Assembly (NCBI GenBank): GCA_026709065.1 | Contig: JAPOTS010000090.1 | Coordinates: forward strand, 1 to 41,612 | Length of the DNA: 41,612 nt | Reading direction: 5' to 3' | From: Bacteroidota bacterium | Lineage (GTDB): Bacteria; Bacteroidota; Rhodothermia; Rhodothermales; Bin80 | Part shown: one piece after another, positions 34,892-41,612 of the stretch | How the letters are laid out: the number at the start of each line of letters is the position of its first letter | Numbering within the stretch: position 1 is the stretch's first letter | Translations under genes and position numbers: made by a program | Notes under the pieces: model-generated | What the model was told of the DNA's origin: nothing | What the model saw: the letters and a program-made list of their open reading frames with translations, nothing else | Databases searched by the model: none

Positions 34892-36217
34892 CTATTGTTC
34901 CATTTTTTCTGAAGATGTTTTTCTTCGAAATGCTAAAGTGATTGGAACGCCCTTGAATCCATAGGCTTTTCGTAGTTGATTTTCTAAATACCGTGCGTAA
35001 CCTGTCCCGACCCCTTGTGGGTGGTTACAAAAGAAGGCAAACAGTGGTGGCTTTACCCCGACCTGCGAAACATACTTGATTTGCACATGCCGACCGCGCC
35101 AACTCGGAGGATGATGCCGGCCAATCGCCCGCTGCATGGTCTGATTGAGTTCTGATGTTGGGATTCTGAATTCTGCATTCTGTTTGATTTCCAGAGCAAG
35201 ATCCAAGACTTGATGGGCACGTTTACTAGTGAGCGCTGAAATAAATAGGATTGGTACATAGTCCAGTGTTTGTAGACGCTCCTGGATTGATCGCTCCATA
35301 TCTCTGGCGGTATTGGTTTCTTTTTCAACGAGATCCCATTTATTGACCACAATGATGAGCCCTTTCATGAGATCCTCTGCTTCTTTGAGGACATGAATAT
35401 CTTGTGCCTCCAGCCCGATGGTTGCATCAATGATCACAGTAGCGATATCGCAATTTCGGATTGCGCGCTCGGTGCGTAGTGTTGCATAAAACTCAATATT
35501 TTCGTGCACTTTGGTTCGTCGTCTGAGCCCCGCTGTATCAACAAGGATTACATTTTGTCCGTTGTAGATCAGTTGAGCATCTACTGCATCGCGGGTTGTT
35601 CCACTGATTTCTGTGACGATTGAGCGTTGTTTACTCAACAGTGTATTTGTCAATTGAGACTTCCCAACATTTGGCCTGCCAATTAGTGCGACTCGGACCC
35701 CTTCTGCATCCTCTTGCGTCTCATCGGACGGTAGAAGTGTGATGATGGCATCAAGAAATTCTCCTGTCCCCATACCGTTAGTCGCGCTCACTGGAAAGAC
35801 TTCACCGAGACCAAGGGTATACATGGAGGATGCGTCCCATCTAAGCTGTTGATTATCTGCTTTATTGGCTGCGACAATGACAGGTTTATCCGTCCGACGG
35901 AGGATCTGAGCCATTTCTTCGTCTAATTTAGTGACTCCTGCCGTGGTATCCGTGACCAGCAAAATTATATCGGCTTCCATGAGGGCAATCTCAACCTGCT
36001 CTCGAATTGCCCGCTCAAAACGATCAGCACTTCGGGGAACATACCCTCCAGTGTCCACCAGTGTGAATTCTTCTCCATTCCAGATCACTTGGCCATAGAC
36101 CCTATCCCTCGTGACACCTGGTGCGTCATGAACAATTGCATGACGTGATTCAGTCAGTCGGTTAAAGAGCGTTGACTTACCTACATTCGGTCGACCAACA
36201 ATTGCAACTAGGTTCAT
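34892..36217 (-). CDS. der: Ribosome biogenesis GTPase Der (EngA)
   Basis: Der has two tandem GTPase domains and a KH-like C-terminal domain, and it matures the 50S subunit. In this 441-aa protein the first G1 is GRPNVGKST with DTGGY and NKAD; the second is GRPNVGKSQ with DTAGLRRR and NKWDLVEK. The KH-like domain begins near residue 355 and holds RHPPSWRGRHVQIKY-like sequence and LENQLRKAYGFKGVPITLAF. The start at 36217 (MNLVAIVGRPNVGKS) is the only sensible one. The gene is the first of the der-nuoI-dinB-like-holA run. Length and all motifs are normal. Confidence 0.97.
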   Translation of the reverse strand: MNLVAIVGRPNVGKSTLFNRLTESRHAIVHDAPGVTRDRVYGQVIWNGEEFTLVDTGGYVPRSADRFERAIREQVEIALMEADIILLVTDTTAGVTKLDEEMAQILRRTDKPVIVAANKADNQQLRWDASSMYTLGLGEVFPVSATNGMGTGEFLDAIITLLPSDETQEDAEGVRVALIGRPNVGKSQLTNTLLSKQRSIVTEISGTTRDAVDAQLIYNGQNVILVDTAGLRRRTKVHENIEFYATLRTERAIRNCDIATVIIDATIGLEAQDIHVLKEAEDLMKGLIIVVNKWDLVEKETNTARDMERSIQERLQTLDYVPILFISALTSKRAHQVLDLALEIKQNAEFRIPTSELNQTMQRAIGRHHPPSWRGRHVQIKYVSQVGVKPPLFAFFCNHPQGVGTGYARYLENQLRKAYGFKGVPITLAFRRKTSSEKMEQ

Positions 36218-36396
36218 GCCGATTGTGTGAAATTTTTCTGATCATCGGATTCTATGATCTTTGATTCGTTTTATTTTGTTGAATCCAGTAGCTGATTAAT
36301 CTTAGTCAAAGCGGGTTCTAATTTGTGCCTTTGGGCGGTTTTGATCAATTGTACAGCATAAGCGAGTCTGCACGAAGAATAGGCATCCCACAAATC

Positions 36397-36705
36397 TTAA
36401 TTCATTGCGTCGTGGGACATGAGAAATTCAACGGCATCGTAAATTGTCCATGAGGTAGATTTCACTCCTTTGACCAAGAATTCCGACCAGATATTTTTTT
36501 CTTTCATTGCATGGGTGAACGCCTCATAAGCGCGTTTTTCGGTCGCACTCATCACATCCAAAATGTAAATTGACGGTATTTCTCCTTTACATTCGCTCAG
36601 AATGTCATCTGTGTATTGTTTCAGAGTATCAAGCCCTAACTCCATAATCACACTTTCTACAACCTCAGCCCAACCTTTCGAATTCCTTTTTTCTGATTTA
36701 CTCAT
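36397..36705 (-). CDS. Hypothetical small soluble protein
   Basis: The 102-aa protein begins with a basic stretch (MSKSEKRNSKGW) and is otherwise predicted alpha-helical and acidic: AEVVESVIMELGLDTLKQYT, then DILDVMSATEKRAYEAF-like helices and a C-terminal WTIYDAVEFLMSHDAMN. I recognise no domain. The codon and residue usage look like real protein. It sits alone at the border between the der cluster and the gene-poor accessory segment, and upstream of it on the minus strand nothing clear is found for 1.2 kb. An uncharacterised accessory protein is the best description. Confidence 0.5.
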   Translation of the reverse strand: MSKSEKRNSKGWAEVVESVIMELGLDTLKQYTDDILSECKGEIPSIYILDVMSATEKRAYEAFTHAMKEKNIWSEFLVKGVKSTSWTIYDAVEFLMSHDAMN

Positions 36706-37379
36706 TGACTAAAATAATTCACTTGGTTCGTTCTTTGAATTTATTTCTTTGAAACACCGATTCTTATTTCAACATTACCCTGTTATCTCTGTCTGCTATC
36801 AATAAATTTTGGAGTATTGACTCTTACATGCTAACTTAATTTCTCCATTTAACCACAACTCCACATCACTGCCCCATCTATTGATAAAGCTTGATCATTT
36901 CTATCACCACGCTGTGGGAAATATCTGGTGAATCCAAAAAATCAAGCTTTTAAAAATTTTAACTTTCCAGCGCGAACTTTGATCAAAATTTACAAACTTG
37001 CGTTTCAGCCTGACATATAGATGACCAAACCCATTCATCAAAACTCTTATCATTCAATCTATGTCCTAATCTCCTACCCAATAATAATGGAGTCCAAAAA
37101 ATTAAGACCGTGTATGTGGCTTAACACCAATCATATTGTCAGAATCAATATTTTCCATGATAGTAGTATACGGAAATATGGTTCTCGTGAGAACGGTCCG
37201 TGGTTCCATATCGTCTCTATCCCTGACGATGCCGTATGATCTGGTGACCACTCCAGCAATTTAGGCAAGTCAAGATAGTAAACCTCCCAGACTGATTGAT
37301 CACCTAAGGTAATTTTTTTCAGTAATCTTCAATTTTGACGATCTGAAGTTCCGTAAGTCAAAAAAGGTTGGTGAGATAA
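36706..37379. other. long noncoding stretch
   Basis: This is AT-rich (visibly more than the window average) with stops in all frames beyond short runs. The plus-strand open frame near 37021-37239 has no recognisable content. Nothing else is seen. Confidence 0.4.
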
Positions 37380-37785
37380 ATTAAAGAGTGCTTATTCCAG
37401 TATTGGCCATTTGTTCCCGACTACGATGCAATTAAGAGATTACGTTCCATCATCTCTATCGATCTCAGAATCGTCCTGAGTTCAGTGCTGGATAACCTGC
37501 TCGCGGCTGGCTGTAAGTACCAACTGGTTTATTATGAGCCCCGTGCACAAGGCACCGCGCGGAATCAGCGCTACATCATCGCGAGCTTGTTCCCGTTCTA
37601 ACCTTTAGGCCTACCGTTGCCCGAAAAACTATCTTACCGCACTTGAGGATCAGTACACACGCGAGAGGCTAACTACGTGTTTAAGATGCACCCAGACATG
37701 GCATCCTGCTAAGGGGCCGGACGGGGATTATGCTATCCACATTCCCTCCATTGCAGACGTATTTGATGTCCGAATATTTGCCTGA
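37380..37785 (+). pseudogene. Remnant of an unidentified gene, frameshifted
   Basis: A plus-strand frame without ATG is open from 37380 to a stop at 37599 (YDAIKRLRSIISIDLRIVLS, then LDNLLAAGCKYQLVYYEPRA). A +1 frame picks up from about 37610 to 37785 (RCPKNYLTALEDQYTRERLT, then GPDGDYAIHIPSIADVFDVR). Both frames read like protein and the segment is more GC-rich than its flanks, suggesting a foreign gene that lost its start and took an indel. I could not assign a family. Confidence 0.4.
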
Positions 37786-37982
37786 CAAATTGTAGACGCT
37801 GAAAAGCAACCCATCTCGAAACATCATTCAAGAAAGAAAGAGCGAAGAGGCAATCAAGGGCTTCACGGCAACCAAAATGCCTTTGGTGGAATCGTTTGGG
37901 TGCACACGTTATAATTCCCAAAATACTACGACCTACAAGTGTTCAATGCAGATGTTTTTACAAAAAAGATATATATAGCAAA

Positions 37983-40004
37983 TCACACCCCCAATTTTTT
38001 GAAGAAGACTTTGTTACGTATAAGAGCATCTTTTATGACTTTATCCCAGCTCATTACTTCAATATATAGTTTTGGCCCTTGAGCCCATGAGAACCAGCCA
38101 AGTCCATCGGGCATGGGTGTAAAACTCCTCTCAAATGTGAGCCATTCAACGATTCGAGGAGTTATGTCACACACAATGTAGCCATAAGCAGGGGTATTCT
38201 CATTCACTTTACATGGGCGTCCAGATGGAGTTGAGTACTTGCCCCTTCGGATATCAATTACATATCCAATGAGTTGATCAATCGGATTACCCGAACTATT
38301 TCGTCTAGTAAAATCATCAAGCATCGGACGCTTAAACTCAATGACAGTAATTGGATTAGACTCAGTTTCATCTCCTCTAAAAAGAACACGATTATCATAA
38401 ATGAGTAAATCAGGCCGCCCCAAATTTCCACCCCCAAGTTGCTTATCCGAGGTGACAAAGTTGGAGAAATTTAGGCGTTCATCAATGAGCCAAAGGTTGT
38501 GACTATCAAAAGGTGTTGAATCTGAATCTTTTCCACGTGGAAAAATAATGTCGTGAACAGCACCTTCATGGAGATAATCACCATGCTCGTCTTTCTCTAA
38601 ACTTTTTTGAATCAACTCAAGTATTGATCTACGAAAGGCAACATAGCGGACAAGGTTATCTTTGCTGGTTTGAGATGCTTGATCAACTATTTTAGTAACA
38701 TTCAAATCAATGTTGGACAAGTTACCATTGGTAAGTACCTTTATAACTTCATCTCGGATATGACGCTCCTGAACAAGTTTTTCTCCATGTAAATACTCTT
38801 CAATTTGCTCATCACTGGCATTCAAGGGAAGATGGGTTAAGTCAGATTCAGCAAGGACATTTTTCAGCCAAATTGCATCGGAGTCTACATACTTTTGAGC
38901 ACGCTCCCGCTTTTTAGATTTGCGAGTCTCAAATTCATCACCGATAGCAATACGGGCAAATTCAGCAACTTGCTTCTCAATGTCTTCTTTTCCAATCAAC
39001 TCAAATAAATTAAGATCATTCCCAAATTCAAACCCTCCACGTTCCACGGACACATTTTGATCAAGGTAATCGCCAAACACGTAAGCTTTGACAATATATT
39101 TGGTATCGGGGTCAGTAGGTTCATAAAAGGCATCCTCAAATTCAGGAATATATTTCTTGATGGGCGTTTCAATCACTTCACGATGATGGGCGATAAGGCT
39201 GATCTGATTGGTGAGAGTTCTTGGGTTATAGATTTTGAATATGCGAACCTTGAAATTTTCTCGTGGGGCTTGTTGAGGTAACTCAAAGTCATGACCTCCT
39301 GGCTCAATTTCTTTAATGAATTTTAAATACTCATTGAGAATGATCGTCTCACCGCCATCTATTTCAGAGAGAATGATTTGAGGAGGTGAAAAATTTTCAT
39401 GAACAAAAAATGGTAGAATACGAGGCACAAGAACTTTCGCAATAGTGTCAAGCCGAAGGTCAAAGGAAGTAGATCCTATCCATGTGTGCAAACGAATAGT
39501 AGTTCCAGTATCATCACGATCAGTTTCATCAGTTTTCAGATTTTCTATGATTTCGGTGTTTCTACCCATTGAGAACTGACGGCACATCAATCGGTCATCG
39601 TTAGCCCTATAAATACTTTCCACTGTGAAATGCTGAAAATGCTTAATACATACAAATCGTCCAAAGCCTCTGCCGCCTTGATTTATCTTTTGATCCGTGT
39701 ATAACGTATCAAAGGCATCTAGGTGGACATCATTAAAGCCGACTCCATTATCGGTAATTTCAAATCCTTCTACAGAATGAAGTCTAGCCTCAACATCACG
39801 CTGTTTGCTACGCAAGACACGTATGTGAACTTGACCATCAGATCCCCTTTCAGCTTCCTGAATGGATTCTATAGCGTTCACAATGACTTCAACTAGCGGA
39901 GTATACGCAGTTGTTCTGGGAAGTATATTGTTAACGGCTCTACCAATATTGATTTTACTCATTGATGAGATAACTTGATGGGAATGAGTTATACATATTG
40001 CCAA
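37983..40004 (-). CDS. GHKL ATPase fused to a PD-(D/E)XK nuclease domain
   Basis: The likely start is the second ATG (39962, MSKINIGRAVNNILP), giving 659 aa. The front is a Bergerat-fold ATPase of the HSP90/MutL/histidine-kinase type: N-box LVEVIVNAIESI (Glu 25, Asn 29), G1 DNGVGF (Asp 71) and a glycine loop GGRGFGRF at 96-103, then GTTIRL. The middle (about 200-430) is helical and uncharacterised, with a lysine/arginine-rich KSKKRERAQK. The C-terminal part looks like a restriction-endonuclease fold: RPDLLIY (Asp 518), VIEFKRP (Glu 542, Lys 544) and NPIDQLIGY (Gln 563). A switchable ATPase tied to a DNA nuclease suggests a stand-alone anti-phage or DNA-quality system. That function is inferred; no partner gene is near, and the surroundings are decayed accessory DNA. 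Confidence 0.8.
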   Translation of the reverse strand: MAICITHSHQVISSMSKINIGRAVNNILPRTTAYTPLVEVIVNAIESIQEAERGSDGQVHIRVLRSKQRDVEARLHSVEGFEITDNGVGFNDVHLDAFDTLYTDQKINQGGRGFGRFVCIKHFQHFTVESIYRANDDRLMCRQFSMGRNTEIIENLKTDETDRDDTGTTIRLHTWIGSTSFDLRLDTIAKVLVPRILPFFVHENFSPPQIILSEIDGGETIILNEYLKFIKEIEPGGHDFELPQQAPRENFKVRIFKIYNPRTLTNQISLIAHHREVIETPIKKYIPEFEDAFYEPTDPDTKYIVKAYVFGDYLDQNVSVERGGFEFGNDLNLFELIGKEDIEKQVAEFARIAIGDEFETRKSKKRERAQKYVDSDAIWLKNVLAESDLTHLPLNASDEQIEEYLHGEKLVQERHIRDEVIKVLTNGNLSNIDLNVTKIVDQASQTSKDNLVRYVAFRRSILELIQKSLEKDEHGDYLHEGAVHDIIFPRGKDSDSTPFDSHNLWLIDERLNFSNFVTSDKQLGGGNLGRPDLLIYDNRVLFRGDETESNPITVIEFKRPMLDDFTRRNSSGNPIDQLIGYVIDIRRGKYSTPSGRPCKVNENTPAYGYIVCDITPRIVEWLTFERSFTPMPDGLGWFSWAQGPKLYIEVMSWDKVIKDALIRNKVFFKKLGV

Positions 40005-40275
40005 TCAATACGTTACAAGAATAGTAAAATATTCTAAAATTGAACAAATTGTATTCTGTCCATAGGATTATTTCGTCTATCCCATCTAAAATTTCTGTGT
40101 AGATGGGATAGGTAAAGGACATTGATGAGTCAGAAATCGCTGGATGGAGAAATTCGGATGAGATACCTGAAGTTTTAGGTGCAGGTTCAAGCCAAATTTT
40201 TTGTTTCTACCTCAAAGTTCTTAACAAAACTATTAATTCATGGTCTAAAACGAGCTCACTGAACGTATCAGCAAC

Positions 40276-40476
40276 ATGACATCAACCAACGTATTGAACC
40301 GCATTGATAATTTGACTCTTTGATTGGAAACCAAGATTGATGCGCAGAACACAAAAATTGACGCTCTGACCACAAAATACAACCTTCTGATTTGGGCAAT
40401 AGGGTTCGCTGGGCTCATCATCTCGGCAGCTATTGTATTCGACTGCAGTGGTGGAAATTCAGGCTACAATCAGTAA
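40276..40476 (+). pseudogene. Small coiled-coil membrane protein with an in-frame TGA
   Basis: From the ATG at 40276 the frame reads MTSTNVLNRIDNLTL, a TGA, then LETKIDAQNTKIDALTTKYN, a helix NLLIWAIGFAGLIISAAIVF and a stop at 40474. The heptad-like I-D-x-L-T repeats and single C-terminal membrane segment are typical of small phage- or mobile-element-encoded coiled-coil proteins. In-frame coding also extends upstream (ELTERISN). The TGA at codon 16 makes it a probable pseudogene; recoding is unlikely. Confidence 0.5.
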
Positions 40477-40556
40477 GCCAGGATCTCAAATCTCAAAAAA
40501 CGGGCTTTTCTGGACGGGCACTAGTATAGGAAATACCGTATATGATATAATCATTA

Positions 40557-40850
40557 TTATGATCGATTCGGAGCACTAGCCATATCCGCCAAAAACATTG
40601 GAGCAAAGTATCCTTGAGGATCAGGTATCCAACCTGCCTGATCATATGTTCGTTGAGGCTTAGACCTAACTGGTGCACATACGAATATACGTTTCTCGGA
40701 AGAAGTGATTCCAAAGTAGTTATAATTCAAAATAGAATCCATATCCTGAACTGAGAATGCGATCAAAGGGTCATGACTCCTTGGATTGAGTTGAATGTCC
40801 TCAATGAGGACACTGTTCAGCGATAACTGGTGTGTAATGATATTTCTCAT
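40557..40850 (-). CDS. Hypothetical small protein
   Basis: A 97-codon frame starts at an ATG at 40850 (MRNIITHQLSLNSVLIEDIQ) and ends SAPNRS. It contains a proline- and aromatic-rich C-terminal half (WIPDPQGYFAPMF). No motif or membrane segment is recognised and no ribosome binding site stands out. It may be a chance frame or a decayed fragment. Confidence 0.3.
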   Translation of the reverse strand: MRNIITHQLSLNSVLIEDIQLNPRSHDPLIAFSVQDMDSILNYNYFGITSSEKRIFVCAPVRSKPQRTYDQAGWIPDPQGYFAPMFLADMASAPNRS

Positions 40851-41612
40851 GAGTTCAAGAGGTTTAAATATCTACGATCCTCCTACAAAACACTGGGGCT
40901 TGTGAGGATGCCATCAGTAAAAAAACAGACGAACACTATCAGCGTGATTACAGTCTAAGTTCTTCAATTTATGGTATTATCTATGGCTACTTTAAAAACG
41001 TTTAAAGATGAGCATTGAAAATGTGAAATATTGGCAGGTTTCGAATTTTCTGAGGTACATCAAACTTTTTTTCATCAAAAAACGCGCCTGAGTGGCATCT
41101 AAGCACATTTGGGCTAAAATCGAAGATTTGTAAATCCAGCACCCCACAGAGACCAGGAAAAACGGAGAGGAATACGAGAGAAAAACCGTACCCAGAGGGC
41201 CTGGATGCCACTTTATTATAGAAATTTTGTGTTATCGGACAGGCACTATATATAAGGCTATGACGCTGATGGATCTACGGCATTTGTATGACTCCGTTCA
41301 ACAATCTCAACTTTATCGTTTGATCATTGACTGAATTGAGTGATTCTCCTCGCACCATATTGTTGAATGATTTTGAGAGTCTCAATGATATGTCAATTTG
41401 AGTTCTGATAGCGGATAATGGAGTTCAGCATGATAATTCCATATAACTTAACTCGTTTCCCTTTCAAAGTACTTGGATCGTTTAATCGGGTGAGTCATAC
41501 CTTTGAAATTCTCGTACGAAAAGTAGAATGTTTCCCCATGCACCCTTAGAAAATTGATCCGAATTGTGACTCATCACCCAATTTAAGGCGAAGGATTCAA
41601 TAATTTTTGTAT
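40851..41612. other. right-edge gene-free stretch
   Basis: No convincing gene is seen in 760 bases. The minus-strand open frame at 41002-41211 has no protein-like pattern. A 9-base inverted repeat is present at 41091-41212. The window ends without a gene running off the edge that I can recognise. Confidence 0.4.
41091..41212. repeat. short inverted repeat pair
   Basis: AGTGGCATC (41091-41099) and GATGCCACT (41204-41212) are perfect 9-base inverted repeats 104 bases apart. Spacing and lack of coding content would suit the ends of a tiny nonautonomous element, but a chance match is quite possible at this length. Confidence 0.25.

Follow-up and report, generated by a model that had tools for sequence, protein, structure and literature searches.

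The window, the whole 41,612-nucleotide stretch analysed here, carries at 37983..39962 on the minus strand a gene encoding a fusion of a GHKL ATPase and a PD-(D/E)XK nuclease. We read this gene as a predicted single-protein anti-phage system of the paraMORC3 or GHKL-type Shedu (VcSduA-like) kind, with a probability of about 0.85. It is very likely a real and functional defence gene, as predicted from its motifs and full-length homologues, because a family member in Vibrio cholerae has been shown to protect against phages. The initial annotation of this DNA held up in its domain content, its ATP-gating logic and its defence role, but not in the novelty that it gave the layout. The two-part GHKL-nuclease arrangement, which it could not connect to a named system, is already known: paraMORC3 was described in 2008 (PMC2292703) and VcSduA was shown to be anti-phage in 2025 (PMC12137116), so that no new kind of system is revealed. 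The finding places this defence family in a Rhodothermales MAG genus, where one genome holds three divergent copies from two clades.

The gene and its domain architecture

The open reading frame is intact, with 659 codons from an ATG on the minus strand. An alternative in-frame TTG start lies at 40004, 42 bases upstream of this ATG, and a reading on the plus strand was rejected because it contains 20 stops. The Bergerat ATP site consists of E25, N29, D71-N-G73-V-G75-F76, G96-G-R-G-F-G-R102 and G153-T-T, and the PD-(D/E)XK site of D518, E542-F-K544 and Q563; the claim that both sites are complete within one polypeptide was confirmed, with every residue named for it in place. HATPase_c was the sole significant Pfam match (28.8 bits, 1.8e-6) and exceeds the Pfam curated cut-off of 26.4 bits, indicating that the ATP-site motifs are not due to chance. 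HSDR_N scored below threshold over residues 506–551 (Pfam, 0.099). NCBIfam and PADLOC models gave no match to the protein, even when profiles were used, and a PDB sequence search returned nothing useful.

An AlphaFold2 model of the full-length protein, built with 19 sequences (mean pLDDT 78.7), shows a GHKL domain and a middle domain, joined by a helical linker to a C-terminal domain of the alpha/beta type. The GHKL (Bergerat-fold) ATPase domain (~residues 1–186; 39405..39962, minus strand) contains E25, N29, D71xGxG75 and G99xGR102 and is assigned from HATPase_c, Foldseek and the invariant motifs. It is followed by an S5-like or clamp middle domain (~residues 187–324; 38991..39404, minus strand) with invariant R261 and R308, recognised from the secondary structure of the model and from Foldseek and named S5 after Iyer 2008 (PMC2292703). 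Foldseek with the whole model matched the first part of the protein to Hsp90, TopoVI-B and GyrB, with E down to 1e-11, and these alignments extend into the middle domains of all three; no Pfam S5 match was found in the window protein. The helical linker (~residues 325–454; 38601..38990, minus strand) is drawn from the model helices at residues 325–340, 342–362, 364–372, 384–412, 415–432 and 437–454. The C-terminal PD-(D/E)XK nuclease domain (~residues 455–659; 37986..38600, minus strand) carries E495, D518, E542xK544 and Q563, and its assignment comes from hhalign against SduA_C with controls and from Foldseek. Because the GHKL-S5 half dominates the search, Foldseek with the full model finds the ATPase half only. 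Among viral proteins, the full model matched mostly Hsp90, topoisomerases and phage RIIA proteins.

Family assignment of the C-terminal nuclease

The endonuclease core that had been proposed for the C-terminal part resolves to the PD-(D/E)XK family by both profile and structure comparison. The C-terminal 232 residues modelled alone gave a moderately confident structure (pLDDT 74.7) whose Foldseek matches included McrC, Nt.BspD6I, FokI and NotI, all of them PD-(D/E)XK enzymes, with E values of 0.004–0.06. None fell below E = 0.001, and no Shedu protein appeared among the 50 matches listed, with Shedu structures present in the PDB.

A profile of the nuclease domain was aligned by hhalign to a profile of 15 SduA_C domains from genomes of the same phylum. 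Over the 149 aligned columns the score was 52.9 and the probability 94%. The alignment takes in the PD, ExKxP and Q motifs and the closing IEV..DK / IEV..D(K/E)L. As controls, none of 100 column shuffles scored above 20.8, and neither the reversed profile nor the N-terminal parts exceeded 12.9. When the SduA_C profile was restricted to its core set, the probability was 9.9%, so that the match depends on the divergent members; the HSDR_N profile was a close second with 91.6% over 74 columns. A single-sequence search of the window protein with Pfam SduA_C gave no match. Mrr_cat and McrC were rejected as the profile family, since neither profile matched. Given the dependence of the SduA_C match on divergent members, the near-equal HSDR_N score and the Foldseek matches, the domain is placed, on these comparisons of sequence and model, as a PD-(D/E)XK nuclease of the Shedu/HSDR_N neighbourhood, in which Shedu appears to be the best full-domain match, though not decisively. 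The window nuclease thus resembles Shedu SduA (SduA_C, PF14082 / DUF4263) in aligning over the whole domain; it differs in that classic SduA has no GHKL ATPase and in that HSDR_N is almost as near.

Comparison with paraMORC3 and VcSduA

Iyer, Abhiman and Aravind (2008) described paraMORC3 as a GHKL-S5 protein with an extra C-terminal restriction-endonuclease fold bearing E-D-ExK, sporadic in distribution, prevalent in proteobacteria and Bacteroidetes and with a subset of stand-alone genes (PMC2292703). Measured against that published description of the 2008 members, nothing speaks against membership of the window protein. It has the GHKL ATP motifs (HATPase_c above the cut-off; invariant in 28 sequences) and the C-terminal E-D-ExK, with E495 and D518 invariant and E542xK544 kept in 26 of 28. 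The gene stands alone, and the family is patchy in its order and is carried on plasmids that are mostly proteobacterial.

VcSduA, the V. cholerae Shedu protein A1552VC_00276, combines a GHKL ATPase with a DUF4263 nuclease at its C-terminus, confers phage protection in both Escherichia coli and V. cholerae, and works alone (PMC12137116, 2025). Its defence is lost with E27A or K557A, and its growth kinetics fit direct restriction in which the host stays viable (PMC12137116). Its authors link VcSduA with both paraMORC3 and Shedu type I-D (PMC12137116). The window protein shares with VcSduA a single polypeptide with N-terminal GHKL motifs I–IV, a clamp-like middle and a C-terminal PD-(D/E)XK domain, encoded by a stand-alone gene. 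The essential E27 and K557 of VcSduA compare with E25 and K544 of the window protein, for which the equivalent residues in the same alignment are E27/K556 in the V. fluvialis and Salinivibrio members and E27/K558 in the Acinetobacter member; the link to VcSduA is one of matching architecture and residue numbers, made through the V. fluvialis and Acinetobacter members. With Shedu type I-D as described in that paper, the window protein shares the N-terminal GHKL ATPase, with E25 as the equivalent of E27. The window copy probably differs from VcSduA in clade, as it falls in the other clade from the V. fluvialis member, to which it is ~30% identical.

The idea that ATP would gate DNA cutting, put forward in the initial annotation, is supported, and dimeric clamp closure itself is the step that we infer. 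MutL (nuclease type) and Hsp90 are ATP-gated GHKL-S5 dimer clamps, and MutL couples its clamp to a C-terminal nuclease. The MutL nuclease has another fold, whereas the window C-terminal domain is of the PD-(D/E)XK type; moreover, MutL and Hsp90 are both vertical housekeeping genes, whereas the window gene is patchy and mobile. We envisage that the protein would dimerise through its GHKL domains upon ATP binding, and that the S5/linker clamp would then shut on invading DNA or on a DNA-protein complex. In the closed state two nuclease domains would be placed on the DNA, which would be cut, and ATP hydrolysis would reset the clamp. Host DNA may be spared if productive closure needs a phage-specific feature such as ends, topology, modification or a replication protein.

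Conservation and selection

Conservation was assessed in 28 sequences, namely the window protein and homologues at 25–83% identity. Residues E25, N29, D71, G73, G75, G99, G101, R102, R261, R308, H470, N489, E495, D518 and K544 are invariant in all 28; E542 is kept in 26 of 28, with Ala in two sister copies, and Q563 in 27 of 28, with Glu in one. Comparison of the window gene with its 83% identical copy gave a dN/dS of 0.14, which corresponds to purifying selection, with values of 0.17 for residues 1–427 and 0.09 for residues 428–659.

The two sister copies that lost the ExK Glu are 57–58% homologues (L005:8001-9974 in G006 and L006:8001-9974 in G007) in which it is replaced by Ala (ALKYP) within an intact frame, and the dN/dS between the two species is 0.23. 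To judge from their sequences, these copies may have lost nuclease activity and yet be retained by selection inside defence islands, so that a role without cutting, or an altered site that still catalyses, is conceivable. Extended to the window protein, such copies would fit a blocker that acts by clamping or compacting phage DNA in an ATP-driven step, with a secondary part left to the nuclease, and MORC-family relatives do compact DNA. However, the nuclease is the most constrained part of the window gene and retains all of its catalytic residues, and K557A inactivates VcSduA (PMC12137116), making a nuclease-independent blocker extremely unlikely. It is also doubtful, if somewhat more probable, that the window clade forms a distinct branch in which the clamp, and not the nuclease, senses and partly blocks, in which case selection would maintain nuclease-dead copies in other defence islands, where, as ATPase-only proteins, they would regulate or partner neighbouring systems. 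The nuclease-intact and nuclease-altered close homologues form a natural set in which the role of the ATPase clamp can be studied.

A defence hotspot beside der

The housekeeping anchor of the variable site is der, an EngA-like double GTPase gene at 34892..36217 on the minus strand, which is present in 10 of 10 genomes of the genus while its flanking cargo varies by species. Upstream of der, G008 carries GmrSD and an Eco57I-type IIG enzyme, G002 carries GmrSD, and G006 and G009 (the latter at a contig end) carry an MmeI-type IIG enzyme; no recognised defence gene was found there in G004, G005 or G010. Because sister species hold GmrSD or type IIG enzymes at this site, the stretch upstream of der (window 36218-41612; L055, L056, L058 and L061) is a defence hotspot of the genus, and the window gene takes the same der-side place as these defence genes. 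Of the contextual evidence for defence, this locus provides the strongest test. The window gene is an occupant that a current defence database misses, as no model in the PADLOC release used recognises its protein.

The gene had been described as the only long intact one in a gene-poor segment, and this is the case, with 36706-37982 and 40005-41612 both lacking any open reading frame above 97 aa. The right end of the window is the end of the contig, so that a single flank of the gene is readable. The decayed stretch beside the gene contains a 97-aa open reading frame at 40557-40850 and, at 40324-40473, a fragment resembling a coiled coil with a membrane segment. At the der hotspot of two other genomes, a short open reading frame beginning LIDFWRWSGSMLSDNTTRG occurs without a Pfam or PADLOC match (L058:5286-5903 in G002 and L059:7819-8253 in G010).

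Distribution and movement of the family

The genome from which the window comes holds three copies of the gene: the window copy (C71), C75 (47%) and C21 (29%). In the family tree, C71 and C75 share one main clade, and C21 belongs to the second, where the Vibrio fluvialis and Acinetobacter members also lie. The family occurs in 5 of 10 members of the genus; a search of 104 further genomes of the order found none, and E. coli genomes searched with the V. fluvialis member likewise gave no match. Members were found on 57 plasmid records, mostly from proteobacteria, of which 28 are conjugative. One member lies near the integrase of the temperate phage vB_RanS_PJN03, and full-length members occur on 24 IMG/VR contigs. 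Three IMG/VR contigs were scanned for neighbours (L065, L035 and L071), of which two encode a phage integrase and the other has an SU10-type capsid gene.

Between the window species and G008, dS was 0.67 for the window gene and 0.59 for the C75 gene, compared with 2.9 for der, the one housekeeping gene used as reference. Similarity to the G008 copy stops at the edges of the gene (37960-39964), and that copy lies in a different context, with SMC- and ClpB-like neighbours. The low dS relative to der, the similarity ending at the gene edges and the different G008 context together suggest that the window gene has most likely been passed from one species to another and from site to site. A decaying family copy split into two overlapping frames is present in G008 (L029:8958-10996), and a short decayed remnant with three TGA stops in G002 (L012 / L028 near 7301); such copies point to gene turnover.

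These observations bear on whether the protein could be a host DNA-repair or chromosome-maintenance factor, MutL- or MORC-like, with no part in defence. The GHKL-S5 architecture is indeed common to MutL, TopoVI-B and Hsp90, and C75 and C21 sit alone among housekeeping genes, with metK/fabF-like and his/metG-like neighbours. Such a function is nevertheless very unlikely for a gene that is patchy within its genus and order, frequent on plasmids, present in a phage and in viral contigs, exchanged between species and subject to the turnover seen in G002 and G008, and whose der-side site is filled by other defence genes in sister species. For the anti-phage reading, the location in the der-side hotspot and the movement between species under purifying selection strengthen the defence role that the initial annotation had advanced by inference.

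Defence neighbours of homologues

The neighbours of homologues agree with this role, which is well supported by relatives that lie beside defence genes or are carried by conjugative plasmids or a temperate phage. Across the homologues surveyed, members repeatedly lie beside defence genes, type I, IIG and III restriction-modification genes among them, and a consistent placement in housekeeping operons, which would have spoken against a defence role, was not found. The 57–58% homologues L005 and L006 lie near ankyrin proteins matching PDC-M72A, and L006 is also accompanied by a DruE-like (Druantia-E-like) helicase and a UvrD helicase. Plasmid members adjoin an AAA ATPase–UvrD helicase pair with AbiE genes in one case and type II CBASS genes in another. 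The Novosphingobium and Spirosoma loci have little defence company beside the family member.

Several members lie beside restriction-modification (R-M) genes, as would be expected if the window protein were an accessory subunit of an R-M system encoded elsewhere, working with a methylase or helicase partner and cutting unmodified DNA only. A member on a Celeribacter plasmid overlaps a type IIG gene (Eco57I domain) by four bases, the viral-contig member L043 follows type III Mod and Res as the third gene, one plasmid member is next to type I R-M genes and a Shedu protein and others follow type I R-M genes, and the 83% identical copy adjoins a C5 DNA methylase; paraMORCs were likewise located mainly in R-M operons (Iyer 2008, PMC2292703). 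However, the partner class varies from locus to locus, and neither the window copy nor its paralogues C75 and C21 have a linked R-M gene. The window genome also lacks a close homologue of the C5 methylase beside the 83% copy, with only local matches of 40–56% over 60–100 residues. As VcSduA works alone (PMC12137116) and a stand-alone subset of paraMORCs was already noted in 2008 (PMC2292703), dependence on such a partner is unlikely, and the single-protein system is preferred.

The 61% homologue (L024) lies among genes for an OLD-family nuclease, a pAgo, a SIR2 protein (PDC-S65) and a patatin. At L024:12147-15713, the pAgo is of the long type (PDLC02394, 1645 bits) and is found beside the SIR2 protein and the OLD-family nuclease.
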